Assembly (NCBI GenBank): GCA_025094145.1
Contig: JALLLS010000029.1
Span: 326,458-390,457 of the forward strand
From: Spinellus fusiger
Lineage: Eukaryota; Mucoromycota; Mucoromycetes; Mucorales; Phycomycetaceae
DNA length: 64,000 bases
Direction of reading: 5' to 3'
How positions within the stretch are numbered: the first letter of the stretch is position 1; the number at the start of each line of letters is the position of its first letter. Shown in pieces: positions 22,081 through 64,000 of this stretch. The notes under the pieces are model-generated. The model ran no database searches. It saw nothing but the letters and a program-made list of their open reading frames with translations, and was not told the DNA's origin. The position numbers and the translations under genes are program-made.

Positions 22081-22120
22081 CTTAATTAAAATTAAGAATT
22101 AAAACAATGTAAATTAAAAA

Positions 22121-27629: not shown

Positions 27630-27789
27630 TAAGTACCCATGTATCCAACATCTGTAAGTGTCCGTTTCAAGAAAAAAAATCCATTGCCAATCTCCACCAA
27701 AACACTGCATCCATCCAAAAAACAACCCATCCATCTACATCCATCACCAAGGAACCTACTCCAGTTTCAGCACTCTCCAACAATTTTGC

Positions 27790-32294: not shown

Positions 32295-32305
32295 CTAGAC
32301 CAATG
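32295..32305 (-). other. tRNA-Glu 5' relic at L-b 3' end
   Basis: CTAGACCAATG equals the reverse complement of tRNA-Glu positions 5-15 and follows the LINE tail ACTTTAAT. ATCTTTCTTTT comes next, similar to the LINE 5' start, which suggests an older tandem copy beyond it. Confidence 0.75.
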
Positions 32306-38901: not shown

Positions 38902-40486
38902 TTCTGCTAAGGACAAGAAGAGCAAAGTAGAAAACATAGCAGGTAAACAGAAATATTCATACAGACCAGTAAAGAAGTCTTGTTCAGATGCCTTCAGAAG
39001 TAATACAAGTGAAGTGTTGATAAGTGAACAGTCATCTTCAAGCATGAAAAAAGATAATTCACCAATACAAACTGAACAAGAGAATGATAATCCTGTTATG
39101 AGAACACTCAAGTTTGCTGAGTACATGATGCCACCTGCTAATGAGAGAGATGATCTTATTTTCAAGGCTCATCTATTGGGGCATTTTGGATTGCAAAGTA
39201 TTGAAAACCAATTACATCATGATGGTGTACATTGGACTAATATGCAAAAAGATATTCAGCACATCATAAGTGAATGTCTTGAGTGTAATAGATTCAATAT
39301 TACCAAAGTGGGTTATCATCCTCCAAAGTCAGTGCTGCCAGATCAACCACTAGATCATTGGTGCATGGATCTTGGCTCATTCAACATTACCTCATCAAGT
39401 GGCAATAATTTCATGCTAGTAATGGTTGATTACTTCTCCAGGTTCACCATTCTAAGAGCATTGCCTGATAAACACAGTACAACCATTGCAAAAGAACTTC
39501 TGTCTATATTTTCATTATTTGGTTTCCCAAAGATTATCAACAGTGACAATGGTACTGAGTTTGTAAATAAGATTGTCACAAATCTTTTTGAAATGAGTGG
39601 TATTGATTGACAACTGTCTCTACCATATTCTCCAATGGGTAATTCAGTCAATGAAGCATACATTGGTTTGGCCAAACATACCATCATTAAAGAACTATGT
39701 GGTAAAGGTCAGGATTGGGATTTATACCTCAATTATGCACAGTACGCAATGAACTGCAGATATGCTTGTTTACATAAATCAAGACCATATACTGTTATGT
39801 TCAATTGGCAACCTGCAGGGTTCCAGAATTATCAGGATGTTAAGCCTACAATTTGAATAGAGAAAGCTGACATGAAACTTATTGATGAAAAGTATACATT
39901 TGTCAATGAAGTCATCATACCAGCACTCCACAAACATATTAGAGATACACAGCTTAAAGATCATGAACAATTTAACAAGTTGCACAGAGTAGTGCAAGAA
40001 CAGTACCCTGTCAGGGCAAAAGTAATGATAAAGAATGTCAATAGACAGAGCAAATTAGATGCTCAAAATGATGGACCATTCTACATTCACAACATAACTA
40101 AGAATGGCAGTTATGTTCTCAAGGATAAAACTGGATCCTTATTATCAAGAGATGTCCCTACTTCACACATCAAACTTATTGCAAACAGTAGCACTGCTGT
40201 CCTTGCAGAAATTGAAGAGCTTAAAGAAACTCATTATAAGGTACAAGCTGTGATTGATCACAAGAACTCTAATGGCAATTACCTATACAGAGTGAGATGG
40301 AAAGGCTACCCTGACCCATCTGATGACACATGGGAACCAACAGAACACTTTGACTCTAAAAAACATATTGAAATATATTGGAGTTGTCATACTACTGGTC
40401 AGCCATCTAAGAAACATAAAACTATAAAAACAGTTAATACATGTAAGATAGCTACAAGAAACAAATGCAGCCACAATTCTGCCTAA
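38867..40486 (+). pseudogene. Gypsy-2 integrase with chromodomain
   Basis: One frame with two stops. The H2C2 zinc finger includes HLLGHFG and CLEC. The catalytic core has DLGSFNITSSSG (Asp), NSDNGTEFVN (Asp) and GNSVNEAYIG (Glu near 39653), so the triad is complete. TGA at 39608 sits where SGIDxQLSLPYSP would need Arg; TGA at 39854 lies where Trp is likely. The last 60 residues hold a chromodomain (YRVRWKGYPDPSDDTWEP, about 40286-40340), which in chromoviruses directs integration to heterochromatin through histone marks. This part is free of stops (39872-40486). Confidence 0.88.
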
Positions 40487-40932: not shown

Positions 40933-43253
40933 ACCCTGTTTGTGCTGACCTTATTACCACAGTGTACAATGAGGCATTGACACTTGGTATATTCCCTCCT
41001 TCCTGGCAGTTGATGTGTTTGACACTCCTACCAAAGAAAGGGGATCTGACCTCTCTAAAGAACTGGAGGCCCATTGCCTTGATCAACACAGATGCCAAAG
41101 TATTCACTTGTCTTCTGAATGCTTGCTTGATCCATGCTGCCAGTAGCCTTGTTTTGCCTTACCAGACAGGTTTTGTGCAAGGAAGGTTCATTGCTGACAA
41201 TGGCATGCTCACAAAGATTGCCATGGAGCAGGCTAGAATAGAGAACTCTTCTGCTGTGGGTCTCTTGTTGGATCAAGAAAAGGCCTATGACAGAGTTCAT
41301 CCAGAGTACCTTAAGAAGGTTATGCTACACTTCAAGTTTCCTCTTTCTCTGGTGAATAGCATATGTAATCTCTTCTTTTCTACACAGATACAGGTCAATG
41401 TGAATGGGCATATCTCTTGCTCACTCACTCAGTCTTGTGGTCTTTGCCAGGGAGATCCTCTCTCTCCTGTGCTTTTCAATCTTGCTTTTGAGCCTCTGTT
41501 GCATTGTTTGCTCCATGATACAACATTCAAGGGTCTCTCTCCTCCTCCACATCCAAGTCTTTCTCCACCTCCTGCTCTCAAGTTTCTAGCCTATGCAGAC
41601 AATCTCCTAGTCTTTCTACCCAACCATGCCCATTTACATTGCTTACAAGAACATCTTACTACATACTCTGCAGCATCCAATGCTCACATTAATATGCACA
41701 AAACACAAGCCTTTTCTCTTTTGGGTGCTCCCCAGCCCTTATGGACACCAATCCTTCAGCAGTACAATATCACAGACTGGCATGACTGTTGTTCACCAGA
41801 ACCTCTTAGGTATCTTGGGTTTCCCTTGATGACTTCTCTACCACAGAGAGATGTCTTTTGAAAGTCACTTTTGTTGAAGATAGAAGCTACCTGCAATATA
41901 CATCTTTCTTGTTCTTTGTCTGTTTGTGGCCATGCAACAGTGCTTAACACTCTTGTTCTCTCAACTCTTTGGCATGTTCTTCATGTAGTGTCTCTTCCCT
42001 CTGTGTTCTTCCAGAAGGTATGGTCACTCATGGGTTGTTTCCTCCAGCACTGCATGTTCCCTCCCATAAAGCTTGCTACTTTATGCTCTCAGACTAGCCA
42101 TGGTGGATTAGGTGTCTTGGATCCCAGCATCCAACAAAATGCTCTCCAATTTCGTTGGCTTGTTCCTTTTTGCTTTTTCCCTTGTTCTCCTTCTGGTCTG
42201 GTACCTCCATGGTTCTCATATCTTCTGCAAGTGGCTGCCCCTTCCTTGGATCCTCTTCATTGTCTTCTGTTTCCCAATCTTTGTCCTTCTGTCTATTGTT
42301 CTTTGAGTAGTGCATTCCACACTATCTTTAGTGCAATGGACCAATTGCCACACTCCTTTGAAAAGATTGCAGTGAATCTTCCCACTTGTCTTGAGCTTCT
42401 GCTTTCTTCTGCTTTTTTTGTTGCTTCTGACTCTCCAGCTTTCCCTTGCTCTTGGCATGCTCTTCAAGTCAGTGATGCTTTTGAGATGAATCAAGAGCTT
42501 GATGTTCTGCAGCACTGTCTCCCTGGTGGCCTTACCAATTATCCACACATTGTTCACAAGTTTTTTTGTAGAATTGATAGCCAATCCTTACTCTTACAGC
42601 CCTTCTTCCTCAGAGCATTGTTACCTGTCCAATTGGTACAGACTCTCTTTCCTTTGCTTTCTCCTAGGACTGGATCTACAGTAGACATCTCTCCTTTCCT
42701 TTCTGCTTTGGTACCCTCCAAGCCATGGTCTTGTCTCTCTCCACATCTTTATCAAAACATATGCATGCAAGTATCTTCAACAGCACCTTCCTTTAACCCT
42801 CCTCTTTGTCCTTCCCACTGGAAAGAGCTCTGGTCTTTGCCATTACAGCATATTACTTGCAATGTATGGTACCAGGCTCTTCATAGCAAGCTTTCATGCC
42901 ACTCTCTTCTACACAAACTTGTTCCCTCTTCCTTTCCCTCTGGCATTTGTCTTGTTTGTTTGGCCACTGAAGATACACAAGAGCACCTTCTTTTTACTTG
43001 TCCAAAGAAATGGTCTTTTTGGTCCTCTTGGCATAAACATTTTGGCCTCTCTCCCCAGCCCTCCAACCTTGTTGCAGCTCTTCTCTCTTTTGTTTTTCCC
43101 AAGGCCAGTGTCTCTAACACTCCCAACGTCTCTATCTTTGGCTGTGCTCTTTTGGCTATATGGCACCACTATTGGATGTTCATATTTGATAATATACCTG
43201 TTACCTCCTCTGCTGTTCTCTTGTCTGCTACTTGCCTCTTGGACCATCTCTAG
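40933..43253 (+). pseudogene. LINE L-e (L1/Tx1-like) reverse transcriptase relic
   Basis: 5'-truncated at LTR A. RT blocks are of the L1 type: LPKKGDLTSLKNWRPIALIN, QTGFVQGRFIADN, LLLDQEKAYDRVHPEYL (first Asp), GLCQGDPLSPVLFNLAFEPLL and KFLAYADNLLVF (about 41580-41615), where the second Asp of the FADD-type box is Asn. An in-frame TGA at 41859 separates the RT from a 460-residue C-terminal region in the same frame (41871-43253), which contains a CLVCLATEDTQEHLLFTC knuckle. It is clearly a different clade from L-a to L-d. No tRNA relic is visible at its end. Confidence 0.85.
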
Positions 43254-44910: not shown

Positions 44911-45331
44911 TTTTTAAGAAAAGTAAAATGTAAGAAAACCTCAAGTACTTAGAATATGCCAGTTTTAAATCTTTTACTATGCCAAATTTTAATTAATTAA
45001 TGCAACAAATTTTCTCTAAAAGTGCAACAATAATAAGTAAAAATAGTGTTGGAAATATTATGGTGCTTCCCCTGAAGCATAAAGACCCACTATGTTTTTA
45101 CTGTTACAAGAAGTTTCCATATACCAATATAGAAACCATAGAAACAGGATGGCTACACATACCCCTGAATATCCATAGAAAAATAGACAGTATATAAGCA
45201 AGCATAGAAACAAACATTTACAAGTTGAAAAATATACTTTCTATTTTGCCAAGCACACCTTTTGCCTCTGCCTTCTAAACAATAGTGTAAATATATCTCA
45301 AAAATATTAATTATTTTATTAATAATAAAAA
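44911..45331. other. AT-rich spacer, no gene
   Basis: It lies between the Tc1-like relic and tRNA-Asp. No terminal inverted repeat of the transposon and no ORF could be recognised. Confidence 0.5.
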
Positions 45332-45403
45332 CTCTTCAACCGAGAATTGAACCCGGGTCTCCCGCGTGACAGGCGGGGATACTTACCACTATACTATCGA
45401 AGA
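45332..45403 (-). tRNA. tRNA-Asp(GTC)
   Basis: Minus strand: acceptor TCTTCGA with TTGAAGA (one G:T), A box TAGTATAGTGG, anticodon stem CCCGC/GCGGG with loop CTGTCAC giving GTC, B box GGTTCAATTC, discriminator G. All stems pair, so it is probably functional. The first base at 45403 abuts LINE L-b copy 2. Confidence 0.92.
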
Positions 45404-45590
45404 ATTTTTCTTTCTACTAAACTTTTTTTTACATCAGTTTCAAACATCTGTAAGTGTTCCATTTCAAGAAAAAAATCCATTGCCGATCTCCACCGAAACA
45501 CTGCATCCATCCAAAACAACAACCCATCCATCTACATCCATCACCAAGGAACCTACCCTCAAAGTTTCAGCACTCTCTAACAATATTTGC

Positions 45591-46553
45591 ATGAGCTACA
45601 GTGTTTCAAGTAAAAAGAGACCATTAGAAGACCAACAACCAGAACAGCAGCACCACCACCAGACACCCCCAATGTCCAGCCAGAAAGAATTTTTGGCAGC
45701 AGTCACGTCGCTCTCCAAAAAGTTTGAGGAGCTAGAGGCCAAAAACCAGAGACAGGAGCAGAGACTGGATGCCTTTGAGGCCCTCCAGGAAGAGAACCAG
45801 AGGCTTAGAGAAGAAGTGGCAAAGCTCAAGGCATTGCTAGCAGTCTGCCCAACAGTCCCAGAGCAGCCCCAGCCCCACTTGATGCTACCTGCACCCCCAA
45901 AAGTCCCAGAAACAGTGAAGACAGCCAAGGATTCTTCCTGGGCTACTGTCACCAAAATGCATTGCCCAGTGACACAAAACATACCCAGACAATCAGAAAA
46001 TCAAGTAGCATCCGCCGCACGTGCCTTTTCAATCCCCGAAGGCCCGAAAGGTTACACATATGTGTATATTCCCAGAGGAAGAAGAATCAACCACCCAGAA
46101 GCCAGAAAGCTTCTTAGAACTGTTGGCCTTGACACTGGAAGAGTCCTAGATGTCTGTTTCCCTGCTTGCTCTGTTCTTGGCCTTCTTGTGCATGTCCAGT
46201 ATGCCCAGGAAGTTACTGCAATATTGACCAAGGCCAAGATTGAGGTCTACAGTGACTTTGACCCCTTGGACCCAAAGCACCTGGCAGATCCAAAGTATGA
46301 GACATACTCTGAGGCAGACTTGATACAAGAAGCCATGCACCTGCACAGAAACCATTGCCTTGTTTCCATGAAATACATAAGACCACATGTTGCCTATGCA
46401 GTAGCCACTGAATTCCATCTAGTTGGGTGGATTGTTGATGAAGACATGCCAGCAAGACCTGCTCCCCATGGCTATGTGGACAGAGATGATCCACTGAATG
46501 CTCTCAGGTCACCAAGAAGATCATCTGTCACCTCTATCAACATGGAGTTATGA
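45591..46553 (+). CDS. LINE L-b ORF1 protein, intact
   Basis: 320 aa from the ATG at 45591; the frame is open upstream into the tRNA, but that ATG is the first that fits the related copies. Residues 1-30 are Gln/His-rich; 34-84 form a coiled coil (KKFEELEAKNQRQEQRL, EENQRLREEVAKLKALL), probably for trimerisation or oligomerisation. SSWATV at 115-120 is shared by L-a. Residues 145-225 are RRM-like (YTYVYIPRGRRIN, DTGRVLDVCFP, VLGLLVHVQYAQEV), followed by FDPLDPKHLADPKYET and a C-terminal SPRRSSV tail. The stop overlaps the ORF2 ATG (ATGA, 46550-46553). By family analogy it binds LINE RNA in a ribonucleoprotein particle. Confidence 0.8.
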   Translation: MSYSVSSKKRPLEDQQPEQQHHHQTPPMSSQKEFLAAVTSLSKKFEELEAKNQRQEQRLDAFEALQEENQRLREEVAKLKALLAVCPTVPEQPQPHLMLPAPPKVPETVKTAKDSSWATVTKMHCPVTQNIPRQSENQVASAARAFSIPEGPKGYTYVYIPRGRRINHPEARKLLRTVGLDTGRVLDVCFPACSVLGLLVHVQYAQEVTAILTKAKIEVYSDFDPLDPKHLADPKYETYSEADLIQEAMHLHRNHCLVSMKYIRPHVAYAVATEFHLVGWIVDEDMPARPAPHGYVDRDDPLNALRSPRRSSVTSINMEL

Positions 46554-49500
46554 ATAGAGTCTCAATAGGCTTATGGAATGCCAATGGACTTCAACAGTCT
46601 TTGGTACATGATATTATGACACACTCACATTTCTTTTCTATGCTTTTCATAACAGAAACCTGGCTCCTCTCCCCCTCATGTCACCCTACTCCCTGGACAC
46701 AGTTCCATACCTATGGCAAGTCTGTTGCAGACAGCTTTTGTGGTTCAATGGGTATCTGTGCACTCATCCCTCCTTCCTGTCCTTTCCATGTCACCCAACT
46801 TCCTATGCCCTCTCCCTATGCCCTTGGTGTTCAGTTTGGTTCCCTGAAAATTATATACCTCTACTTACCACCCTCTCTCTCTATTGAAGCTACCCTAGAG
46901 GTTCTCAACTCCATTCCTTTGCTTGATGATACCATCATCTGTGGTGACCTAAATGCATGCCTTGGTAGCATCATTGGTGACCATGACACCAACCCCAGAG
47001 GAACATCACTAATAGACTGAATTGAGGAACACCAACTCCAGGTGCACAACATTATGCATGCCTTTGGCCTCCCAACATTCCTTTCATTTTGTCAAGAGCA
47101 GCAATTGACCAGCATTGTAGACCTGTTCTTGTCCAACTGTGTCTTTGCCAACACATCCATGCAAGTCTTTGACAACCTCAGTCTGAGTTCAGACCACAAG
47201 CTCCTTAGTCTCTCCTTTGACTATGACATGTCTTCTACCCCACCCACACCACCACCAGTTTGAAGAACTTGGAATCTGTCTTGCCTCTTGGAGTCAGAAG
47301 TGGTAGACCTGTACAAAGAAACATTCAGTACCTGTGTCACTGATCTTTCTTGCACACTAGCCTCTGCAGTTGAGAATCCACCAGTCTCCTGCCCAGACAT
47401 TGAGGGTCTCACAGCCCAGTTCAATAGCTGCATTTACAAGGCACTTGACAGTTCTGTTGGTATAAAGGCAGCCAGACCTAAGCACTGGAAGGAGTTCTGG
47501 AATGAGGCACTTCAAGAAGCAGTCAACAGAAGAGAACAATGCTATAGAAGATGGAGAATGGCAAGAGGCCTAGACAAAGTTCTTTGGTGGCAAAGACACA
47601 CTGAAGCAAAGCAAGCATTCAGGAGTGAAGTACAGAAAGCCAAGAGACAGCAGTGGCAGGCTTTCTGCAGAGAAATGGAGCAAGACTTTGTGAAGGCAAC
47701 TTCCAAGGTGAAGCAGATCAGAAGGAGAAGGCAGCCCCAACAAACCTTCCAGCATGAAGATGGCCCTGAAGCAGCAGCTGAAGCCATGAGACAGCACCTA
47801 GAGACTGTATACAGGGGTTTCTCCTTACAGCAATACGTCCCCCTGCCCAGCTGTGACACAGACAAGTGCATTTTCTGCCAATGACTCACCCTTTTCTTCT
47901 GCCTTGGTAGAGATGTCCATGAAAAAGCTTCCAAACTGCAAGGCACCTGGAGCTGACCATCTGAGAGCTGAAATGCTCAAGCCCATTGGCCACCTAGTCT
48001 CACCCACCTGTCTCTTTGTTCACCATGTGCTGGCAATGGTCCATTGTTCCTCTTCCCTGGCACCAGGCTCAAGTCATTCCAATCTTCAAGAAGGGTAACC
48101 CTAAGGATCCAGCCAACTATAGGCCAATTTCTCTCACCTTTGTACTGCAAAAGCTGTTTGAGACATGCCTAGCCCCTGATCTGCACAGGTACTCCCCTCC
48201 TCTGGATGTTGCCCAAGGTGGCTTCAGACCAAGACGAGGTGCACTGGACCAGGCTCTGTGCTTGCACAACCTGATGAAGAGGTACTACAGCAGACACCAC
48301 CACTACCCTGTTGTTGCCTATCTAGACATCAAAGCAGCATATGACACAGTAGATAGAAATGTGATCTGGGATGCCTTACACAAGAGAAATACACCACCTG
48401 CACTCCTGGCTCTGCTCATCCACCTATTTGATGATGTCTCAGTTGCTGTGATATTGAACAACTTTGTTTCATTGCCATTCTCTCCAGTAACAGGTGTGCT
48501 GCAGGGCTCTGTTCTTAGTCCCCACCTCTACTCTATTTACATCAACTCCCTGGCCTGCTTGTTCAGAAGTGTAGCATCACCACAGACAACAACATTTGTG
48601 CAGTCAACATCACCAGCATCACTTGAAGAGTACCATGCAGCACTCAGCAACAGCAGCAACAGGCCTGAGCAGCCCACAGCCATCAACTCTCTCTTCTTTG
48701 CAGATGACATTGCAATCTTTGGCAAGGCACATGAGGTGCACCAAATGCTACAGCTAGCTGAACAATTCTCTTTCTCTGTGGGTTTCTATTGGATCCATCC
48801 AAGTGTGAGGTTGTGCTTCCAATCACCATGTCTGCCTCAACGTTATTCAAGCTCTATGGAGAGCCACTGCCCATTGCCCAAGAGTTTATCTACCTTGGTA
48901 TACCCTTCAACTACAAAGGTGTTAACCCTGCCTCTATAGTCAAGCATAGGAAACAAGGTACCATGATGGCCATGTCTACCTTGCATGCAGTTGGTGCCTC
49001 TGCTCTGGATTCTCCCTGCTGCTCAGTTCCAGGCTGTACAAGACCTTTATCAGGCCAAAATTTGAGTATGGTCTTGCCATTTCAGTACTCTCAAGCAAGA
49101 CACCAAGGCACTTGAAAAGATCCAGGATAGATGCCTTTGTATGATTGTTGGGGGCCATCCAACAAGTTCAACCCAAGTCTTGAAGCATCTTTTAACCTAC
49201 CAAGCATGCAATTCAGAACAGACTCACTCAAGACCAGGTTCTGTCTTAGAGCCCACCACCTGCCTCACAACTGCCTCTTGTATCTGCTGAGCAGCACACA
49301 GCATGGGATATCACCTCTGGAGCCCTTGAAGAAGAACCCTCTCTACCACTTGCTCCCAGCCCAATGGCCTTCCACATCAGCCCAGCTCAAGGCATACTTC
49401 CAAGACCAGCAGCAACATCTGTTCAAGAATACCTGGCAACATCAGACAAGGTGCTGATAAGAGCATGCAGGCCAACTCTTGGCATAGACCCAGTCCTCTA

Positions 49501-49860
49501 CCTACCAGCAGATAGGTATGACAGAAGCAGGCTGGTGCGTTGGAGAATGGGGTGGCTCCAGGAAAACCATGCCCTTGTCAGTGTAATCCAGATGAGCACA
49601 CTTCTAGAAGACACCTTGCTGTTTGCCCAGTAATACCAAGACATCTGTGGGAACAACTCCCCCCATCAGCACAGCAGCATCCACTGGACAATGCCATCAA
49701 CTGTCTTCCTCTCAAGTCTCCTTCCTGTCCTTCCTTCTGGGTGCCTCTCCTGACAATACTATGGCACATTGACCAGCTCTGTAACCCAGACAGCAACTAC
49801 AGCACAGCAGCCAGCCCAGGATCCCTTTGGTCTGAGCAAGCAGCATCCCAGCATGCATGA
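46550..49860 (+). pseudogene. LINE L-b ORF2, endonuclease and RT with stops and frameshifts
   Basis: It starts MNRVSIGLWNANGLQ, keeps FITETWLL, IICGDLNACLG and SSDHKLLSLSF. TGA occurs at 47018 (LIDxIEEH, where Trp is expected), a shift near 47260, an open stretch 47288-47884, then loss near 47820, and RT at 48016-48939 with NYRPISLTFVLQK, YLDIKAAYDTVD, GVLQGSVLSPHLY and SLFFADDIAIFG. Further small indels lie near 48793, 49002, 49087 and 49190. The knuckle CQCNPDEHTSRRHLAVCP is at about 49575-49630. It resembles copy 1 at 28742 closely. Confidence 0.88.
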
Positions 49861-50101
49861 ACAGCTTTTTTTTTGCTTCTCTGTCTTCCTCTCTCTCACT
49901 GTCACAACCTATTAGCACAGTTGCAGAGTAGAGAGCAGGGACAATCACTTAGTCTAGTAGTCTTAGCTTCTTTTTCTTGCATGGTCTTTTTTGTTCTTTT
50001 AAGCCTGTAGAACTTTTTTGTATCTTTTTTTCAAATTGTCATGAGGAGGGTAATATGCTTTATTAAGCTAGTACAAAAACCCCTTTAATAAAAAACTTTA
50101 A

Positions 50102-50117
50102 TATAAACCAATGTGGA
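50102..50117 (-). other. tRNA-Glu-type 5' relic at the end of L-b copy 2
   Basis: TATAAACCAATGTGGA is the reverse complement of TCCACATTGGTTTATA, matching the tRNA-Glu 5' end (TCCGCATTGGTCTAG) apart from transitions. CTGCTAAGCTT follows, the same sequence as in the LINE 5' end at 22204, then LTR E1. Confidence 0.7.
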
Positions 50118-50488: not shown

Positions 50489-50877
50489 TGTCATTCCCTA
50501 ATTTGGACAGAATAGTTCTAAGCCCAGAGGTATGTGCACATAGTGGAATAGCTAGTGGTTCTTGGTTTGGACTGAAGCCCACATAGATCAAAGAAGAAGA
50601 ATAAAAGAGAAGATAGAAGATAGTGTTTATTCATTGAATTCAATTGATTATTTATACTAAATTCTACAGTGTACAATTGCATATACATGTCTTGTCTTTA
50701 TGTTCTCTTTACAGTGAGCATGTTAAGCCAAGACAATATATTGCATTAGCATTTATCTTATTAATTATATTATATTATCTGTGTGTATCCACACAGGATA
50801 ATGTGTGTTCCAAAAAGGGAAGACATGTGCAGCCAATAGTATTACTCTATTTGATAGCACAGTGTCTAGCACAGACA
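50489..50877 (-). mobile_element. Solo LTR, family E (E2 type), next to E1
   Basis: TGTCATTCCC to GCACAGACA, near-identical to 10309-10697. Its left 4-mer is AGCT (shared with E1) and the right is AAAC, so its own duplication is not visible. Confidence 0.85.
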
Positions 50878-50886
50878 AAACATCCC

Positions 50887-50901
50887 ACCTTCTTGACTCA
50901 G
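50887..50901 (+). other. tRNA-Thr 5' relic 1
   Basis: CACCTTCTTGACTCAG-type sequence (one G-to-A change from GCCTTCTTGGCTCAG), directly before the reversed 3' end of a LINE tail. First of four relics leading up to the intact tRNA-Thr. Confidence 0.8.
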
Positions 50902-51128
50902 TTTAAAGATTTTGTTTTATTAAGGATGTATGCATGGGCTTATTTAGCACTCTGCTATCCAAAGAATCAAAAGAAAAAGATATAAAAAAGTTCCACAGGA
51001 CAAAAGAACAAAAAAAGTAGTGCAAGGAAAAACTAAGACTAATTGGTCTAATTCTTGTCTCTGCTCTCCACTCTGCAGCTGCTCTAAATAAGTGTGGCAG
51101 TGAGAGGGAGGAAGACAGAAGAAAAACA
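50902..51128 (-). mobile_element. LINE 3' tail fragment, strongly 5'-truncated
   Basis: Read on the minus strand it matches the 3' untranslated region of L-a (compare 26600-26820: CCTCCCTCTCACTG, GCAGAGTGGAGAGCAG), ending CTTTAAA at 50902. Only about 230 bp were copied. Confidence 0.8.
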
Positions 51129-51143
51129 GCCTTCTTGGCTCAG
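51129..51143 (+). other. tRNA-Thr 5' relic 2
   Basis: GCCTTCTTGGCTCAG, identical to the first 15 nt of the tRNA-Thr at 54159. Confidence 0.9.
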
Positions 51144-51455
51144 ATGAAAGATTTTTTATTTGTTACAAGTATCTTGGGCATGCAATCTATGGATCATATT
51201 TGCTATACTTTGGGAGTCTTATTTTATAGGAGAAGCATATTGTTCACCCAGGAACACAGACCAAGAACCAGGGACAAGAGAACAATAGCATCAAACCCTT
51301 ATTTGAGGTGGAGGGGACAGGAGGACTACAGAGTGGTCACACAAGGAGGGGAGAAGGATAGGACTCAAGGTTGAAACCACCAGCCAAGCACACAGCAACC
51401 AAAGATGGACCAGACATCTGCTGGGATTGCAGTAGGGGCTGTAGATGCCCATATT
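51144..51455 (-). mobile_element. SINE-X, 5'-truncated copy
   Basis: Minus orientation; matches 61054-61365, including TTACAAGTATCTTGG near the 3' end, the central GTTCCTGGGTG and GGGCTGTAGATGCCCATAT. It lacks the tRNA-like head of the longer copy. It is non-coding. Confidence 0.75.
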
Positions 51456-51470
51456 GCCTTCTTGGCTCAG
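51456..51470 (+). other. tRNA-Thr 5' relic 3
   Basis: GCCTTCTTGGCTCAG again, identical to relic 2 and to the tRNA-Thr start. Confidence 0.9.
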
Positions 51471-51898
51471 TTTAAAGATTATTTTTATTAAGGAGTATAT
51501 TTCACAGGCTAAATATAGTACAGTGACTCTGCAGAACATAGAGAGAAAGGAAAGGAATTGAAGTACAGACAAATTTTAGACTAAGACTTATTGGAAAGAT
51601 AGCTTAATTAAGCCCATGAGAGCATCCTCTACCTGCCTGGACAACCACACCAGACAGAAATGGCATTAAACCCTTTTGGGACATACAGATCATATAGGAT
51701 ACCAGGCAGTGCCTGCATGAGGGGGGGAAGGACAGGATGCATGGTCAAAACCACCAGCCAAGACTGCAAAACCAACCTGGCCAGAAAATATTAGGGGCTG
51801 GGATGGCTGTTTTAGAGCAGAAATTGTTCTTCCCTGGGATTTGAACCCACAACCTCTGCAATGCTTAGCACATGTTAATACCAACTTGGCCAAGCCAA
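51471..51898 (-). mobile_element. SINE-Y with tRNA-like head
   Basis: The head (about 51826-51896, minus strand) has a good A box TGGCCAAGTTGG and, about 40 nt on, a B box GGTTCAAATCC, so it carries an RNA polymerase III internal promoter. The body shares segments with SINE-X (CTTGGCTGGTGGTTTTGACC against CTTGGCTGGTGGTTTCAACC; CCTTCCCCCCCTC against CCTTCTCCCCTCC). The 3' end TTAATAAAAATAATCTTTAAA matches the LINE tails, as expected of a SINE mobilised by a partner LINE. Confidence 0.72.
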
Positions 51899-51906
51899 AC
51901 ATCCCA

Positions 51907-51920
51907 CCTTCTTGGCTCAG
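51907..51920 (+). other. tRNA-Thr 5' relic 4
   Basis: CCTTCTTGGCTCAG, 14 nt identical to tRNA-Thr positions 2-15, preceded by AAACATCCCA, as also before relic 1. Confidence 0.9.
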
Positions 51921-54158
51921 GTTAAGGATTATTTTCATTAAAGGGGTATTTATCACATGCTTCAAAAAGTAAAGTGACCCCACAGAAAAGAAAAGAAAAG
52001 AAACAAAAAATATCTAAGACTAAAAGATATAAAAAATGCTAAACTACTTGACAGAAAACTCTAAACTACTCTCTAAACTACTGTTCTGGAGGTCTTCCAC
52101 CCAATGTGCACTAAATGGTTGTGGCAGTGGGGGAGAGCAACCAGGAGACAGACAGAAAAGGTTTCATTCTTGTAAGGACCTAATACTGCCACCAGAGGCC
52201 AGCCACAGGGATCCAGGAGACAAGTCCTCAGGAAAGAAACAGTCTGGGCGACATAGTGTTTCTATGTGCCAGAGCAAGGCAAGCAAGGCAGGCCACCACA
52301 CAGGACAGGGAGCGCCACAATGTGTTGACATGCTGTTGAGGCAGGAGTCAATAGGGTGAACCCCAGCAGAACAAACAGGCAGCAAAGACCAAAGGGAGGC
52401 AGGAACAAGAGGACACTCCAAAAGGTGATGGTGTGAGGTGTGGTCCAGGCCACAGGAACATTTTCTAGGCTTTCCAGGGAGCTACCCAAGATGCCAACAG
52501 ACCAAATGGCTTCTTTCTGCTCTAGAAGCAGGCACCAACAGAACAGGATCAATTCCCAACAAGGGGCGGCAGTGTTTGATCAACACCATGGTGGTGGTGG
52601 CAAGGAACAGGTCAAACTTGTGCTGGCAGTACTCCTCAAAGAATAGTTCAGCTGGCTATCTTTGGTAGGAACAGGGTCTGGCAGGGCAAGGTACAGAGCA
52701 TTTTCTACCAGATATGAACTCCTTCTGGCCATGGGCAGAGAGGCAGAGAGAATGACAAGAAGACAAGAGGAAGGCAAGGACCAAAAATGCAAGACAAAAT
52801 GGGTCACCAGCACATTTACTCTATGCTTCATGGAGGGCATGTTGGTAATGTGCTTCAGCACTGTTGTGGATGAAGTTGGGTGGCCACCCACCAGGAGATG
52901 GAGACACCTGTCTTGGAGCCTTTCAAGGGCCTTGAACTCTGTAGCCTTCAGATAGGAGATGGCCAGGCCAAACTCAAACTTGGGCCTCACAAAAGTCTTG
53001 TAAATGTGGGAGCAGAGGTGGAGAGAGAAGCCAGCATGGTTCACACCAACCAGGTTTAGGATGCCCATCACCTTGAGCACACCAGGGGACCGAGAAGACA
53101 CCAAAGAGGAAGCAGACAGACCCTTCTTGCCAAAGGGCAGACCAAGATACATCACCTCCTCTGCATGTGGAAGTGGCACACTATACAAAGAGAGGGAGAG
53201 GCCATGGGATGTTGAAGAAGTGGAGGAAGGATGGTTCAACACCACACACTTGCTAGGGTTCCACCTGTACCCAAGAGAGAATGAATGCTGCTCTGCCAGA
53301 GCCAGCATATCTTGTACTGCATCTTTGTCTCCAAAGACAGTCACGTCATCTGCAAAAAGCAGAGAGTTCACAGGAACTAAGGCAGGACCAGAGCCAGAAC
53401 CAGAACCAGAACCAGAGGGAAAGGACACACAGTGGGTTGTTGGCCTAGCAGCACAACAAAGCAAGGCAGGCAGAGAGTTGATATACAGTGAGTATAGACA
53501 TGGGCTCAACACTGACCCTTGGAGCACCCCAGTCACTGGAGCAAATGGTAAAGAAGAGTGGTTAGACAAGAGCACAGAGATGGTTACCTCATCAAAAAGG
53601 TGAGAGACAAATGAGAGGAGTGCTGGAGGAGTGCCAAAGGAAGACAGGGCTTGCCAGACCACATGTCTGTCAACCTTGTCATATGCTGAAGATATATCCA
53701 GAAGTGCCACAACTGGATAATGGTGGTGTTGAAGGTAGTGAGCATGCATCAGGTCATGCAGACACAGGGCCTGGTCCAGAGAACTTCTCTTTGGGCAAAA
53801 TCCACCTTGTGCCAAGTCAGGAACTGGAGAATACTGTGACAATGAGGGGGCAATGCAGAATTCCAGCAGCTTTCTGACCACTGAGGTAAGGGAAATTGGC
53901 CTATAATTGGCAGCATCAGATTTCTCACCCTTCTTGTAAATTGGGAAGACTGCAGCATGTCTCTATAGCTGAGGAGTGTGGGACCACTGCCAGCAAACAG
54001 TGAACAGGTTAGCCAGTAGGGGGGCCAGGACCAGACTAAGAGGCTTCAGCATTTCTGCCTTGAGGTGGTCTGTACCAGGGGCTTTCCTGTTGGGGAGAAG
54101 CTTGATACAGCCAGCAACAAGATCAGACTCAAACATTGGAATGTCCATATGCATACCA
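51921..54158 (-). pseudogene. LINE L-c copy 2 (5'-truncated) with ORF2 relic, abutting tRNA-Thr
   Basis: Minus strand. The element is truncated in the linker before RT and directly abuts the first base of tRNA-Thr. RT blocks: LPNRKAPGTDHLKAEML, NYRPISLTSVVRK, QGGFCPKRSSLDQ, LLDISSAYDKVD, GVLQGSVLSPCLYSLYIN and SLLFADDVTVFG with FADD intact. A Gly-Ser dipeptide repeat lies before FADD (near 53386-53420). TAG at about 53961 replaces the Trp of the PWxxAxV block, in frame. Frameshifts after 52580 and near 52460 disturb the C-terminus; the knuckle and LLECPLVPASLW reading lie at 52164-52450. The 3' tail ends CCTTAAC at 51921. Closest relative is L-c copy 1. Confidence 0.87.
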
Positions 54159-54231
54159 GCCTTCTTGGCTCAGTTGGCAGAGCGTCTGCCTAGTAAGCAG
54201 AAGGTCGCCAGTTCAATTCTGGCAGAAGGCA
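54159..54231 (+). tRNA. tRNA-Thr(AGT)
   Basis: Perfect cloverleaf: acceptor GCCTTCT/AGAAGGC, D arm GCTC/GAGC, anticodon stem TCTGC/GCAGA with loop CTAGTAA giving AGT, T stem GCCAG/CTGGC, discriminator A. A box TGGCTCAGTTGG; B box GTTCAATTC. No intron. Despite at least four insertion events at its position 15/16, the gene is intact because each insertion duplicated the 5' part. Confidence 0.95.
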
Positions 54232-60270: not shown

Positions 60271-61038
60271 TTAGTAAAGACCTCCTTGACTTCAGTTTCA
60301 TACTGAAAATAGACCAGAAGACCAAGAACAGAGTGGGCAGGGAAACAGACATCCAGAATTCTACCTGTGTCAAGGCCAAGGGTTCTTAAGAGATGTCTTG
60401 CCTCAGGATGGTTCATGCATCTGCCTCTGGGAATATACACATAGGAAAAGCCCTTTGGATCTTCCTAGATTGAGAAAGCACATACAGCAGACTCTACTCT
60501 TTGAGCAGTTGGTGCCTGTCTTTTTGGGGGAGCTGGGTGGGTCTTTTTGGCTACAGTAGCCCATGTGGAATCTTTGACTGTCTTGTCAGCCTGGTGCAGA
60601 GTTTTTGTTGTATTGGCAGTCACCTCATGTGTGACTGTTGTTGCCTTATTTGTCAACTGCACAATTCTGGCCTCAAGGGCTGTGACTGTCCCTTTCAGTC
60701 TCTGGTTTTCCTTAAGCAAGGCCTCAAAAGCATCAAGTCTCTGCCTTTGCTCCTCAAAGTTTTTCTGCAGTGACGTCACTGCTGCAATTAATTGCATCTT
60801 GGTGGTGCTGGATGCATTTTGTTGCTGTTGTTGCCCAGTAAGTGTAGGAAACATGCTGTAACTACTGTAGTTTGGTAGATAGTGCTCTGAAACTTGTACA
60901 GTAGGTGGATGGAGGGTGGATGGTGATGGATGGATAGAGATTGTTGATGGATGCAGTGTTTTGGTGGAGATGGGTGATGGATTTTTTGTTGAAAATGGAG
61001 AACTTAGAAATGTTGGATACTGGTACAAAAAAAAGCTT

Positions 61039-61053
61039 TCCACATTGGTCTAG
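61039..61053 (+). other. tRNA-Glu 5' relic
   Basis: TCCACATTGGTCTAG equals the first 15 nt of tRNA-Glu with one G-to-A change, placed between the L-a copy 3 5' end and the SINE-X 3' end. Confidence 0.85.
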
Positions 61054-61435
61054 ATGAAGGATTTTTTATTTGTTACAAGTATCTTGGTGCACACAATCTA
61101 TGGATCATATTTGCTATACTTTGGGAGTCTTATTTATATAGGGGAAGCATATTGATCACCCAGGAACACAGACCAAGAACCAGGGACAAGAGAACAATGG
61201 CATCAAACCCCTATTTGAGGTGGAGGGGACAGGAGGACTGCAGACTGGTCACACAAGGAGGGGAGAAGGACAGGACTCAAGGTTGAAACTGCCAGCCAAG
61301 CACACAGCAACCAAAGATGGACCAGACATCTGCCAGGATTGCAGTAGGGGCTGTGGATGCCCATATTTTAACTGGGCAACTGGGGATTGAACCCAGGCCA
61401 CACCAATGACATGACACATTACTACCACCACATCA
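61054..61435 (-). mobile_element. SINE-X, long copy with tRNA-like head
   Basis: Minus orientation. The head near 61365-61432 has a B box GGTTCAATCCC and a weak A-box-like TGGTGGTAGTAATG. The body is like 51144-51455; the 3' end is ATAAAAAATCCTTCAT. No ORF. It is flanked on both sides by tRNA-Glu relics. Confidence 0.7.
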
Positions 61436-61449
61436 TTGCAAACATCTAC

Positions 61450-61464
61450 TCTGCATTGGTCTAG
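61450..61464 (+). other. tRNA-Glu 5' relic
   Basis: TCTGCATTGGTCTAG matches the tRNA-Glu start with one C-to-T change, directly before the LINE L-a copy 4 3' end (GTTAAAGATTTTTT). Confidence 0.85.
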
Positions 61465-64000
61465 GTTAAAGATTTTTTTATTAAAAGAGATATATGCATT
61501 TGCTTAATGAAGCCTTACTGCACTCCTTACACTAATTGAAGTAAACAAAAAAGTTCTATAGGACAAAAGAACAAAAAAAGACAGGCAAAAGAAAGAAACT
61601 AAGACTACTGGACTTTAAGGCTGTCCCTGCTCTCCACTCTGCAGCTGTGTTAAAAGATTGTAACAGTGAGAGGGAGGAGGCCAGAGAAGCAGAACAAAAA
61701 GCTGTTCATTCATGCACCTGGTGCACCTGATCATGCCAAAGCATGCCTAGACTTGAGTGGGGACTAAACTCACTGTCAGGATTGCAAAGCTGGTCTATAT
61801 GCCAGAGAATTGTATGTAGAGGCACCCAGAAAGAAGGACAGGAAGAAGATTTCTTAGAAAGACAGTTGATGGTGTGATCCAATGGGTGGCAGTGTTGTGG
61901 TGCTGGTGGTAGTTGATCCCATAGGTCCCTTGGAATTGCTGGACACTCTGCAAGATGTCTTCTGGAGGTGTGCTCTGCTGGACTGCACTGACATGGACGT
62001 GGCTTACCAGGAAGCCATCCCATTCTCCAACGTATGAGCCTGCTTCTGTCATGTCTGGTTGCTGGCAAGAAGAGGACTGGATCAATGCCAAGTGTTGGCC
62101 TGCATGCCTTGATCAGCACCTTGTCTGTCACTTGCAGATACTGGTCAAGGAGCTGGTGGTGTTGTTTCTGGAAGTATTGTTTGAGTTGGGCAGATGATTC
62201 TGGCAATACTGCTGGAAGAGAGGCAAAGAGGTGATTCTTGGTGAGTGGTTCAAGTGGTGGCACTCCTGGACTGTTTAGCAGCAGAGACAAAAGACATTGG
62301 GGTGGAAGTGAGGCAGCACGTAGACAGAACCTTGTCTTGAGAGAGTCTGAGCAGAAACTCATGCTGGGCAGGTCACAGATATGCTTCAACACCTGAGTGG
62401 AGCTAGTGGGGTGGCCACCTATTATCATTCTTAGGCACCTGTCTTGTATCTTCTCCAGAGCTTTGATATCTTTCTTCAAAAGAACAGTGATTGCCAGACC
62501 ATACTCAAACTTTGGCCTAATGAAGGTCTTGTATAGTCTTGAGCTGAGGAGCAAAGAGAAACCAGAATGTGAGGCACCAACAGCATGCAGTGTGGACATG
62601 GCAAACATTGTGCCTTGCTTTCTGTGTGAGATAATCCCAGAGGAGTTGATTCCATTGTAGACAAAGGGCATGCCAAGGTAAATAAACTCATTGGCTGCTG
62701 GAAGGGCCTCTCCATATATCTTGAACTGGTTGGCCTGGGAAACAGAAGGGGGAAGGACCACTGCACACTTGGAAGGACTCCATATAAAGCCAACTGAAAC
62801 AGAGTAGTGCTCTGCCAAATGCAACATGTGCTGAACCTCTCCAACCTTACCAAAGACAGCAATATCATCAGCAAAGAAGAGTGAGTTGATTCCTGTAGGC
62901 TTATCCATAGTGGTGCTACTGTTGTCTGTTAGTGATTCTTCATACTCTGCCAAAGATGATGGTGAGCTTGACTGCACATGTGTTGTTGTTGTTGCTGTTG
63001 CCACACTTCTGAAAAGACATGCAAGTGGGTTAATGTAGATTGAATAAAGGTGGGGGCTGAGAACTGAGCCTTGCAGTACACCAGTTACTGGAGAGAACAA
63101 AGAGGACACATAGTTGTTCAGGATGACTGACACATAGACATCATCAAACAAGTGGACAAGCAAAGCAAGCAGTGGTGGCGGTGTGTTTCTCTTGTGCAGG
63201 GCATCCCAGATCAGGTTCCTGTCAACAGTGTCATAGGCTGCCTTGATGTCCAAGTAGGCTACCACAGGATAGTGGTGGTGTCTCTGATAATATCTCTTCA
63301 TCAGGTTGTGTAAACACAGAGCCTGGTCCAGTGCACCTCGTCTTGGTCTGAATCCACCCTGAGCAACATCAAGTGGGGGAGAGTACTTGTGCAGGTCTGG
63401 TACTAGACATACCTCAAACAGCTTTCTGAGAACAGAAGTCAATGAGATTGGCCTGTAGTTGGCTGGATCACTTGGATCACCCTTTTTGAAGATGGGGAAC
63501 ACCTGTGCTTGATGCCATGGGAGAGGAACATAGGACCACTGCCAACACATGGTGAACAGACCAGAAAGAATGGGGACAATGGTGGTGCTGAGTGGCTTTA
63601 GCATTTCTGCTCTCAGGTGGTCTACTCCTGGTGCTTTCCTATTTGGCAGCAGCTTCATACAGAACTTGACAACAGGTTGTGAGAATGGTGTTGTGGCTGC
63701 TGGGAAGGGATGCTGATGCTGCTGTGCTGTTACTGGTGGTCTAAGTGATGTTAATAGTGAGCCTCTATAAACACTCTCAAGGTGTTGGCTCATCACTTCT
63801 GCTGCTGCTGCTGGCCCATCTGGGTGTTGGAATGTCTGCTGTGGCTGTCTTCTTCTACAAATCTGCTTCACCTTGGATGTAGCCTTTGCATAGTCTCTCT
63901 CCATGCTCTTGCAAAACTCCTGCCAGTGTCTTCTCTTGGCTCTTTGCACCTCACACCTAAAGGCCCTCTGTGCATCTAGGTGCCTCTGCCACCAACAAAC
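61465..64000 (-). mobile_element. LINE L-a copy 4, 3' half, runs off the window
   Basis: The 3' tail (61465-61705) and most of ORF2 are present on the minus strand. By analogy, its 5' end should abut a tRNA-Glu gene or another relic to the right of the window. Confidence 0.88.
61706..64000 (-). CDS. LINE L-a ORF2, intact RT and C-terminal knuckle (partial at edge)
   Basis: An open frame of over 760 codons continues past the window edge; the apparent internal start at 63949 is not genuine. Counting from 63949: NRKAPGVDHL 103-112, NYRPISLTSV 164-173, QGGFRPRRGALDQ 197-209, YLDIKAAYDTVD 232-243 (Asp 234), GVLQGSVLSPHLYSIYIN 290-307, FADD 359-362 (both Asp intact), thumb with SPSKC and YLGMPF, and a Cys/His knuckle at C653, C655, H660, H665, C669. 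All reverse transcriptase catalytic residues are present and no stop or frameshift is seen, unlike every other ORF2 here. It would carry out target-primed reverse transcription at tRNA genes. The missing N-terminal endonuclease lies outside. Confidence 0.9.
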   Translation of the reverse strand, partial: VCWWQRHLDAQRAFRCEVQRAKRRHWQEFCKSMERDYAKATSKVKQICRRRQPQQTFQHPDGPAAAAEVMSQHLESVYRGSLLTSLRPPVTAQQHQHPFPAATTPFSQPVVKFCMKLLPNRKAPGVDHLRAEMLKPLSTTIVPILSGLFTMCWQWSYVPLPWHQAQVFPIFKKGDPSDPANYRPISLTSVLRKLFEVCLVPDLHKYSPPLDVAQGGFRPRRGALDQALCLHNLMKRYYQRHHHYPVVAYLDIKAAYDTVDRNLIWDALHKRNTPPPLLALLVHLFDDVYVSVILNNYVSSLFSPVTGVLQGSVLSPHLYSIYINPLACLFRSVATATTTTHVQSSSPSSLAEYEESLTDNSSTTMDKPTGINSLFFADDIAVFGKVGEVQHMLHLAEHYSVSVGFIWSPSKCAVVLPPSVSQANQFKIYGEALPAANEFIYLGMPFVYNGINSSGIISHRKQGTMFAMSTLHAVGASHSGFSLLLSSRLYKTFIRPKFEYGLAITVLLKKDIKALEKIQDRCLRMIIGGHPTSSTQVLKHICDLPSMSFCSDSLKTRFCLRAASLPPQCLLSLLLNSPGVPPLEPLTKNHLFASLPAVLPESSAQLKQYFQKQHHQLLDQYLQVTDKVLIKACRPTLGIDPVLFLPATRHDRSRLIRWRMGWLPGKPRPCQCSPAEHTSRRHLAECPAIPRDLWDQLPPAPQHCHPLDHTINCLSKKSSSCPSFWVPLHTILWHIDQLCNPDSEFSPHSSLGMLWHDQVHQVHE

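Follow-up and report, generated by a model that had tools for sequence, protein, structure and literature searches.

LINE retrotransposons and their partner SINEs in Spinellus fusiger very probably insert inside tRNA genes by target-primed reverse transcription, with a target duplication that regenerates the interrupted gene. The families concerned (LINE-A, LINE-B, LINE-c, LINE-d and LINE-e) are, with the same high confidence, APE-type LINEs. The fixed register of insertion, the duplication length, the orientation of the elements, the nick motif of each family, the stacking, the many targets and the isoacceptors with every located gene hit are read directly from the DNA, whereas the enzyme steps that would produce them are deduced from it. 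The window is the whole stretch of DNA that was analysed, 64,000 nucleotides of contig JALLLS010000029.1, and its features are listed in Table 1.

Within the window, four elements at 50887-54231 lie head-on to a tRNA-Thr gene, each flanked by 15-nt copies of the tRNA start. The sequence GCCTTCTTGGCTCAG occurs with two mismatches at 50887, none at 51129 and 51456, one at 51906 and none at 54159, where the intact gene begins; the original prediction had located the same copies, with the fourth at 51907 rather than 51906. At up to three mismatches, six matches were found in the window, compared with 1.83 on average and at most 5 in dinucleotide shuffles, and the sole match beyond the Thr stack carries three mismatches. 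The elements that had been described between the copies (a LINE tail, a truncated SINE-X, SINE-Y and LINE-c, all in minus orientation) were seen again, as were the 3' ends CTTTAAA, CTTTCAT, CTTTAAA and CCTTAAC against the relics. Since the members of the stack are different elements, its origin by tandem duplication of a single unit was ruled out. Beyond this stack, the window holds further cases at tRNA-Glu and tRNA-Asp, including a Glu stack at its end (61038-64000); approximately 760 bp separate the 5' side of the LINE-B at 27602-32294 from the next relic.

Table 1. Elements, tRNA genes and tRNA relics in the window, in order of position
Feature	Position	Strand	Basis or remark
tRNA-Glu(TTC), target of the second stack	22120-22193	-	ARAGORN
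LINE-A, 5' end adjoining tRNA-Glu, 3' end TCTTTAAC	22194-26827	+	
tRNA-Glu relic, decayed (one indel)	26828-26842	-	
LINE-B, 3' end ACTTTAAT, then Glu relic 32295-32305	27602-32294	+	
tRNA-Asp(GTC)	45331-45404	-	ARAGORN
LINE-B, 5' end against tRNA-Asp; 3' flank 50103-50117 decayed, Glu-like (discordant)	45405-50102	+	
tRNA-Thr 5' relic 1 (ACCTTCTTGACTCAG)	50887-50901	+	2 mismatches
LINE-e tail, 5'-truncated, 227 nt, 3' end CTTTAAA at 50902	50902-51128	-	match to C120:377431-377528
tRNA-Thr 5' relic 2	51129-51143	+	exact
SINE-X, 5'-truncated, 312 nt (395 nt at the Glu copy)	51144-51455	-	
tRNA-Thr 5' relic 3	51456-51470	+	exact
SINE-Y, 435 nt, tRNA-like head with A and B boxes, LINE-c-like tail	51471-51905	-	
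tRNA-Thr 5' relic 4 (ACCTTCTTGGCTCAG)	51906-51920	+	1 mismatch
LINE-c, 5'-truncated, 2,238 nt, RVT_1 ORF 52580-53881	51921-54158	-	
tRNA-Thr(AGT), intact, target and restored gene	54159-54231	+	ARAGORN; 6 genome copies found
tRNA-Glu 5' relic (TTCCACATTGGTCTAG)	61038-61053	+	
SINE-X, 395 nt, within tRNA-Glu	61054-61448	-	
tRNA-Glu 5' relic (CTCTGCATTGGTCTAG)	61449-61464	+	
LINE-A 3' part, RVT_1 ORF 61706-63949, cut by the contig end	61465-64000	-	

A reverse transcriptase (RT) domain is present in LINE-A, LINE-B and LINE-c and matches the structures of L1 ORF2p and R2. In profile searches, LINE-c gave an APE domain (PF14529/PF03372) above the cut-off together with the RT (PF00078); in the broken window copies of LINE-A and LINE-B, PF00078 was clear and PF14529 was weak or at or below the Pfam cut-off. 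In C77, the only LINE-c copy read from end to end, ORF2 is split over two frames, and LINE-d and LINE-e are known mostly from their tails. No RNase H family was among the domain matches of the LINE proteins, and no other nuclease family among those of LINE-c and the broken window copies of LINE-A and LINE-B. The fixed 3' end, variable 5' truncation and target duplication of LINEs were all found, with 5'-truncated copies at 50902 and 51921 and in C12, C30, C1 and C88. SINE-Y has the Pol III head and shared tail of a SINE partnered with a LINE, its A box lying at 14, its B box at 59, and its nucleotides 353-434 being 76% identical to the LINE-c tail; in SINE-X only a B box was found (Glu copy), and the LINE-c tail was not matched. 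Of 495 matches to the RT, 120 were listed; the relatives among these are 37-55% identical and include named proteins of Umbelopsis, Rhizopus, Mucor and Lichtheimia; a scan of viral contigs gave no relatives beyond this genome.

Across the genome, 59 of 77 LINE and SINE 3' ends are followed, in a fixed register, by a tRNA 5' end that is read in the same genome, and control windows 16-45 nt further out gave 1 of 2,235. The 77 ends are those left after genome matches lacking a 3' end, and LINE tails found by the SINE query, had been dropped; by family, the matching ends amount to 27/40 for LINE-A/B/d/e, 12/14 for LINE-c, 16/17 for SINE-Y and 4/6 for SINE-X. The 3' ends are thus not mostly next to unrelated sequence, the outcome that the original prediction had named as counting against itself. 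Of the 18 ends failing the strict test, some adjoin tRNA relics that have decayed, are shifted or were not listed; no tRNA was visible at six 3' ends (C158:80470, C134:46452, C161:151380, C121:610698, C110:989015 and C13:29112), and the 3' end of the SINE-Y at C129:324549 was not recognisable. Relics of approximately 15 tRNA species were found, so that insertion into tRNA-Thr, as first proposed, stands for that gene and is rejected as a limit. LINE-A relics are, according to place, of Glu, Asp, His, Gly, Pro, Val, Thr-TGT or Tyr, and those of SINE-X are of Thr and Glu. A multicopy RNA gene is entered at a defined nucleotide position, with two such positions for LINE-A and with 18 of the 77 ends unmatched.

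On the other side of the elements, SINE-Y 5' ends lie no more than 3 nt from an intact tRNA gene (13) or relic (2) in 15 of 17 copies. LINE-A/B 5' ends are found against Asp, Glu, Val, Pro, Ala, His, Gly and Thr-TGT genes or at most 4 nt from them, and LINE-c 5' ends adjoin tRNA-Tyr and tRNA-Cys; for 14 LINE 5' ends the upstream-motif rule was revised with the data in view, the first rule having missed LINE 5' ends. LINE-A/B 5' ends were not found where a fixed length predicted them in C20, C101, C125 and C141, LINE-c 5' ends were not found at the predicted places in C129, C161 and C121, and the C176 5' end lies approximately 100 bp away from its fixed-length prediction.

Among the 38 elements with both flanks read, 29 have the same tRNA on both sides, whereas 20,000 shuffled pairings gave 4.0 on average and never more than 14. 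The flank labels are the analyst's reading of the junction sequences, and C74 was scored as concordant with Ile though its relic fits Thr-TGT one base better. This comparison was made without ends whose opposite flank was not read and without elements interrupted by LTR-like repeats (C103, C126, C154:330392, C1:182883, C88:11784, C135:263153 and the window LINE-B ending at 32294). LTR-like repeats also end shortly upstream of many tRNA genes in this genome.

The remaining nine of the 38 carry different tRNAs on their two sides, which a simple insertion would not yield. Eight of the nine are LINEs (the window element at 45405-50102, C36, C49, C79 (LINE-A), C54, C1, C88 and C176, with the SINE-Y at C59:25528 as the ninth); discordance affects 8/22 LINEs vs. 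1/16 SINEs (Fisher 0.052), and 7/15 in LINE-A/B alone. The likelier origin is that copies from different tRNA genes recombined ectopically or that different copies were joined in the assembly, considering that the discordant elements belong to families rich in similar copies, that long elements are more affected than short ones and that the relic sides still resemble tRNA upstream regions. Mixed flanks are also known for Dada-tL, where the excerpted text of the source ascribes them to one-ended transposition (PMC3706591). C1 and C88, however, are 5'-truncated LINE-A copies that are continuous over their full length, and a truncated partner would be required for them. It seems rather unlikely that cDNA begun at one tRNA gene was instead completed at another. 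Closeness of tRNA genes in the nucleus could be a cause, the 5' junctions of discordant copies are still at tRNA nucleotide 1 and the bias toward long elements would be expected; however, each event would rearrange chromosomes, and no feature here tells such joining from later recombination.

The target duplication has a median of 14 bp in 25 of the 29 concordant elements, a sample picked for concordance (the four outside it are the window LINE-A at Glu, C135, C129:302802 and C110:494916, which duplicates a measured copy in inverted orientation), which agrees with the 14-15 bp originally suggested to rebuild the tRNA. Full-length LINE-c copies in tRNA-Tyr (C77) and tRNA-Cys (C79) show exact repeats of 16 and 15 nt, respectively, reaching up to A14. 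The tRNA-Lys and tRNA-Ala-AGC genes have A15 and their relics G15, in 6/6 cases where an A15 gene adjoins (Lys in C54, C125, C197 and twice in C110, Ala in C135); the two C110 cases are duplicates of each other, and the C135 junction is odd, with an additional 13-nt partial repeat. Because the relics of A15 genes carry a G15 that comes from the element side, the nick is placed after A14 (14/15); the A-box region had been predicted correctly, and the position 15/16 is rejected.

Insertion follows TA or AA in 27/27 cases for LINE-A/B and TCA in 42/44 for LINE-c/d/e and SINE-Y, the TCA motif being found in 0/27 of the former (Fisher 1.4e-17). LINE-A/B insert next to TAG/AAG, and a cut at 9/10 is also possible: both in Thr-TGT and in a tRNA-Tyr relic of C59, LINE-A lies at position 9, following TTTA, and the C59 relic also holds LINE-c at 14. 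One LINE-B was additionally found at CAATA/GAGTGG, slightly upstream of tRNA-Leu. These positions bear on the alternative that the elements are placed by Pol III tethering only, as for TRE5-A or Ty3, with recruitment by TFIIIB/TFIIIC and a cut at fixed distance by an endonuclease that does not read sequence. The targets are mostly Pol III genes, and this route is proposed for TRE5-A in the excerpted text of PMC5391098. However, the two motif classes (TA/AA at 14 or 9 and TCA at 14), the two families that cut one tRNA-Tyr at two positions and the LINE-B site near tRNA-Leu place the nick according to sequence and not distance, so tethering alone is unlikely; tethering combined with sequence reading may apply.

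In the proposed insertion mechanism, the element endonuclease would nick the sense strand of the tRNA within its A-box region: after A14 (TCA/RTTGG) for LINE-c/d/e and SINE-Y and after TA/AA (TA/G) for LINE-A/B. The 3'-OH of tRNA nucleotides 1-14 would prime reverse transcription of the element RNA, starting at its 3' end, which would place the element head-on to the tRNA. The second strand would be cut close to nucleotide 1 and fill-in would duplicate approximately 14 bp, one copy becoming the upstream relic and the other forming, with nucleotide 15 onward, a complete tRNA gene including the A and B boxes. The rebuilt gene would remain a target, so that each new insertion in the stack comes to lie between the gene and the element inserted before it. 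Successive stacking ahead of a rebuilt gene had been proposed from the Thr stack and holds genome-wide; rebuilding by the duplication was likewise retained, and a special self-repair was dropped, as any duplication that spans the stretch from nucleotide 1 to the nick suffices.

Insertions were found at 6/6 tRNA-Thr-AGT, 4/4 tRNA-Cys and 2/2 tRNA-Thr-TGT genes located. Because every located gene of these isoacceptors carries an insertion, the interrupted genes probably still work, and transcription of the restored genes would continue. That an insertion kills the gene, the downstream sequence being a pseudogene or a neighbouring copy, is very unlikely in view of these complete sets and of restored genes that have their full length and both the A and the B box, even though the 5' flanks are replaced along with any upstream promoter elements and the C189 Thr-AGT is, close to its 3' end, unlike the other five. 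It is scarcely credible that the tRNA 5' fragments are parts of the elements and the stacks tandem duplications: every 3' end in the Thr stack adjoins a relic and the relic is unlike the opposite-side gene in 9/38 elements, but relics differ within one family (LINE-A, SINE-X) and so follow the locus, they equal the local gene in 29/38 against 4.0 by shuffling, and stacked elements differ from each other.

A broader reading, doubtful when taken as a whole, is that the A box serves as an address partly read by base pairing, that isoacceptor 5' flanks have been replaced and that finishing at a second gene may occur. Element RNA might extend into UGAG (or CUA) past the 3' end and anneal to the nicked ...CTCA-3' of the next tRNA; this UGAG-CTCA pairing would explain the G15 relics at A15 genes. 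Repeated rounds by several LINE lineages and SINEs might then have put element 5' ends before whole isoacceptor sets.

Bacterial genomic islands at tRNA 3' ends restore their target, leave a fragment and stack in tandem; they use a site-specific recombinase and bring the gene end themselves, whereas here it comes from the target duplication. Elements that target tRNA genes are already known as such; a LINE/SINE cut inside the gene with restoration through the duplication distinguishes the present families from the relatives described below. No fungal example of such tRNA-rebuilding insertion was found in the open-access literature, in line with the original prediction, which named none. The dictyostelid TRE5, TRE3, NLTR-A and NLTR-B are tRNA-targeting non-LTR elements that, in the excerpted sources, insert beside the gene (approximately 50 bp upstream, approximately 100 bp downstream and 2-6 bp upstream), and TRE5-A contacts TFIIIB (PMC5006619, PMC5911963, PMC5391098). 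They resemble the present elements as two-ORF LINEs (APE-type in TRE) at many different tRNA genes, and the NLTR-A site, 2-6 bp upstream of the mature tRNA, is near the 5' junctions seen here; those excerpts describe no in-gene cut or rebuilding, whereas the elements here lie inside the gene at 14/15 or 9/10. NeSL-1_TV (tRNA-Pro), LIN15_SM (tRNA-Arg) and LIN25_SM (tRNA-Glu) are target-specific non-LTR elements (excerpt of PMC4640811) and likewise link LINE-type insertion to tRNA gene sequences. The excerpt names one tRNA per family and a restriction-like endonuclease for NeSL-related elements, in contrast to the approximately 15 species and the APE of LINE-c in this study, with no restriction-like enzyme found among the domain matches of LINE-c and of the window copies of LINE-A and LINE-B. 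Five Dada lineages insert at tRNA nucleotides 8-13, in the A box (PMC8869645, PMC3706591, in excerpt), and share with the present elements this location and mixed flanks from two tRNA genes. As described there, Dada has a DDE transposase, a 6-7 bp duplication and no LINE/SINE pair, and its tolerance is ascribed to high tRNA copy number; here, RT/APE elements have a median duplication of 14 bp, and tolerance is ascribed to rebuilding. In Rhizopus, Ty3 LTRs co-locate with tRNA genes (PMC2699053, PMC5911963, in excerpt) and Ty3-type elements occupy the same genomic niche, but their integrase inserts outside the gene, at the transcription start or upstream of it, whereas the present insertions are inside it.

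The insertion point lies within an essential gene and yet would be cheap, owing to strand polarity and a 14-bp stagger that together restore it, a strategy unlike both insertion at a safe distance and reliance on spare copies. The dense stacks record the order of insertion at each gene, and the restoration of its own target makes such a LINE interesting for gene delivery. The system makes it testable how an APE endonuclease reads the A box, with two motif classes and two positions, and whether element RNA pairs with the nicked target. Additionally, tRNA supply becomes testable where a retrotransposon is the 5' flank of every located isoacceptor gene; if the broader reading is true, host Pol III genes would run behind leaders supplied by retrotransposons.

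The 3' ends of these LINEs and SINEs are mostly followed by the start of a tRNA gene throughout the Spinellus fusiger assembly (38.08 Mb, 197 contigs; the window is G000:C120:326458-390457). Genome searches gave at least 40 matches with the LINE-B 3' end as the query, at least 11 with the SINE-X unit, at least 25 with the LINE-c 3' end and at least 31 with SINE-Y, these counts being lower bounds because scoring covered the best candidates. With matches short of a 3' end and LINE tails caught by the SINE query left out, 77 3' ends were read (40, 6, 14 and 17, respectively); the 40 include two tail groups, labeled LINE-d and LINE-e and known here from tails alone. The 15-mer after each end was compared, ungapped and in one fixed register, with 32 tRNA 5' sequences of this genome over the first 14 nt (at most two mismatches) or, where the gene has TAG at 8-10, over the first 10 nt (at most one mismatch). 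The original prediction had proposed a genome-wide comparison of this kind, and a tRNA 5' end was found after 59 of the 77 ends, as against one among 2,235 control windows placed 16-45 nt farther from the element. The best matches were Thr-AGT (11, plus one entered by hand), Tyr (10, plus one at position 10), Lys (8), Glu (6), Gly-GCC (3), Ile (3), Thr-TGT (3, plus one at position 10) and His, Asp, Val, Cys, Ala-AGC and Pro (2 each); single assignments may be wrong (Ile vs. Thr-TGT, Val vs. Pro) because some tRNA starts are one base apart. Among the 18 ends that fail are Glu relics (tRNA 5' fragments left at element 3' ends) in a decayed or shifted state, relics of tRNAs outside the 32 (GGTTTTGTGATGTAG twice, GCATCAATAGTTTAG and a relative of it), a LINE-B site upstream of tRNA-Leu, one SINE-Y without a recognizable 3' end and six ends at which no tRNA is visible by eye, two of them in a divergent LINE-c subfamily (C161, C121).

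Within the window, the layout of the tRNA-Thr array stands as first described, apart from one coordinate that was off by one, and tRNA-Thr is joined as a target by Glu and Asp. The LINE-A adjoins tRNA-Glu and has a decayed Glu relic at its other end, one LINE-B meets a Glu relic with its 3' end, another starts at tRNA-Asp, and a SINE-X sits between two Glu relics. Where a relic departs from the gene, C has often become T, or G become A (GCCTG for GCCCG, CTGG for CCGG); this is an impression rather than a tally, and it resembles decay of CpG sites once the duplication has formed. The 5-nt repeat at a LINE-B end on contig C36 perhaps reflects slippage at priming.

In several tRNA families every gene located is occupied. 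A LINE or SINE was present at this site in all six tRNA-Thr-AGT genes located (five identical, the one on C189 97% alike), both tRNA-Thr-TGT genes carry an insertion, and LINE 5' sequence stands in front of all four tRNA-Cys genes matching the pattern; at one of these, 12 nt of it remain behind an LTR-like repeat, and the 3' end of that LINE is followed by a Cys relic. All six tRNA-Phe genes located have some 9-12 nt (more in two) that look like a LINE 5' end, which is weaker evidence of insertion. Other isoacceptors include genes without a visible element; among five His flanks sought, for example, those on C101, C103 and C112 have only LTR-like ends. Of 63 Rfam tRNA places, 62 were used (one partial hit was left out), and for 45 of these the upstream sequence covered 40 nt or more; a SINE 5' end lies upstream of nine and a LINE 5' motif upstream of 14 (0.6% and 1.4% at random positions), and two more adjoin 5'-truncated LINEs, a share that is no genome-wide rate because some places were chosen on account of a LINE and the rule for LINE motifs was written with the flanks already in view. 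Additionally, several LTR-like repeats (e.g., ending ...AAATTAGGGAACGAC) stop some 5-20 bp short of many tRNA genes, on their upstream side; between some of these repeats and the tRNA, 9-12 nt from the 5' end of an older LINE survive. The genome combines a Ty3-like habit with that of the LINEs.

The position of the nick can be read from tRNA-Lys and tRNA-Ala-AGC genes, in which bases 11-15 are CTCAA. Six insertions have such a gene next to the element, and in every one the relic is CTCAG; two of the six are duplicates of each other, and the Ala case (C135) has an extra 13-nt partial repeat. As the two copies in a target duplication derive from a single gene, base 15 of the relic has to lie on the element side, which places the nick after A14; most LINE-A and LINE-B relics end in G, suggesting the same position for these lineages. 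Insertion inside the A box was therefore correctly predicted, but not its exact point, 15/16. Across 25 concordant elements (same tRNA on both flanks), the median length of the target duplication is 14 bp, with four values of 23-24 inflated by similar element 5' ends on both sides. This median corresponds to tRNA nt 1-14, so that the right-hand copy together with nt 15 onward forms a complete gene, in agreement with the earlier proposal that a duplication of this size gives back the whole tRNA gene.

The sequence before the nick differs by family, being TA in LINE-A (18 of 21; AA in 3 of 21) and LINE-B (6/6), and TCA in LINE-d/e (13/13), LINE-c (14/14) and SINE-Y (15/17), while six SINE-X copies have TCA (3), CCA (2) or CTA (1). 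LINE-A is also found after TTTA at position 9, in tRNA-Thr-TGT (C130) and in a tRNA-Tyr start (C59), the latter being cut by LINE-A at 9 and by LINE-c at 14. One LINE-B lies between CAATA and GAGTGG, just upstream of tRNA-Leu. Insertion position thus tracks base sequence, which favors reading by the element's endonuclease, whether or not Pol III factors assist.

Flanks were compared on both sides of 38 elements, and the same tRNA was present in 29, while in nine the 5' junction and the 3' relic belong to different tRNAs. Shuffled pairing (20,000 rounds) gave a mean of 4.0 matches and a maximum of 14; the observed concordance is far above chance. Discordant flanks were seen in 8 of 22 LINEs vs. 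1 of 16 SINEs (Fisher 0.052). The tRNA-Tyr, LINE-c 5' junction and downstream flank are near-identical on C77 and C176, the 3' relics differ (Tyr vs. Thr), and the C77 copy, of the same family, is concordant; this likeness fits exchange or joining between copies. Recombination, assembly joins, or elements finished at a second tRNA gene are all possible sources of discordance. On C1 and C88 the discordant element is in each case one 5'-truncated LINE-A copy, with 97-98% likeness along the full length.

Locations of discordant elements and other features (C-numbers are assembly contigs)
Location	Feature	tRNA, first flank	tRNA, second flank
Window 45405-50102	Discordant element	Asp gene	Glu-like relic
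C36	Discordant element	Glu	Outside list
C49	Discordant element	Val-TAC	His
C79	Discordant LINE-A	Pro-TGG	Val-like
C54	Discordant element	Gly	Glu
C1:190183	Discordant element	Glu-CTC	Outside list
C88:3716	Discordant element	Ala-TGC	Gly
C176:18971	Discordant LINE-c	Tyr	Thr
C59:25528	Discordant SINE-Y	Lys	Tyr
C129:302802	3' end entered by hand		Thr-AGT
C36:63354	LINE-B, 3' end TTTAATCTAAT (5-nt repeat of the end) ahead of relic		Glu relic
C135:146500-146700	LINE-c; extra 13-nt partial tRNA-start copy between LINE 5' end and gene	Ala-AGC	
C110:491931-495340	Two SINE-Y/tRNA-Lys units, near-identical, inverted, ~2.5 kb apart	Lys	
Window 61038, 61449	Glu relics around SINE-X	Glu relic	Glu relic
Window 50700-50886, 10320-10520 (also other flanks)	LTR-like repeats upstream of tRNA genes		
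Window 39872-40486	ORF with stretch resembling a chromodomain by eye, at end of LTR-type pol region		
Window 40962-43253	Further reverse transcriptase region (RVT_1, E 8.7e-32)		

The LINE-c on C77 is 4.96 kb long and lies between TCCCGGCTTTAGCTCA repeats in a tRNA gene called Asn by ARAGORN and read here as Tyr, with anticodon GTA and an intron. It has an ORF1 of 345 aa and, overlapping by 4 nt, an ORF2 that encodes APE and RT domains; ORF2 is split over two frames, which marks the copy as broken. The head of SINE-Y is tRNA-like, its tail is shared with LINE-c (76% over 83 columns) and a 41-nt central piece is shared with SINE-X. Among the matches listed, the best named ones to the LINE RT are mucoromycete proteins from Umbelopsis isabellina, Rhizopus stolonifer and Mucor velutinosus (48-49% identical).

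In the portions consulted of a 2018 review of Pol III targeting and of a second paper, the non-LTR cases TRE5, TRE3, NLTR-A and NLTR-B all lie beside the tRNA gene (PMC5911963; PMC5006619), whereas the elements described here lie inside it. The excerpted account of NeSL-1_TV, LIN15_SM and LIN25_SM describes them as tRNA-specific (PMC4640811). Dada elements, according to the part of the source used, insert at tRNA nt 8-13 (PMC8869645) but are DNA transposons, unlike these LINEs and SINEs. The titles and abstract openings covered by searches of the open-access literature mention no fungal LINE with this habit, though one may already have been described. The elements are read here as target-specific LINEs: APE-type, A-box-directed, using many tRNAs, accompanied by a SINE partner and rebuilding their target.
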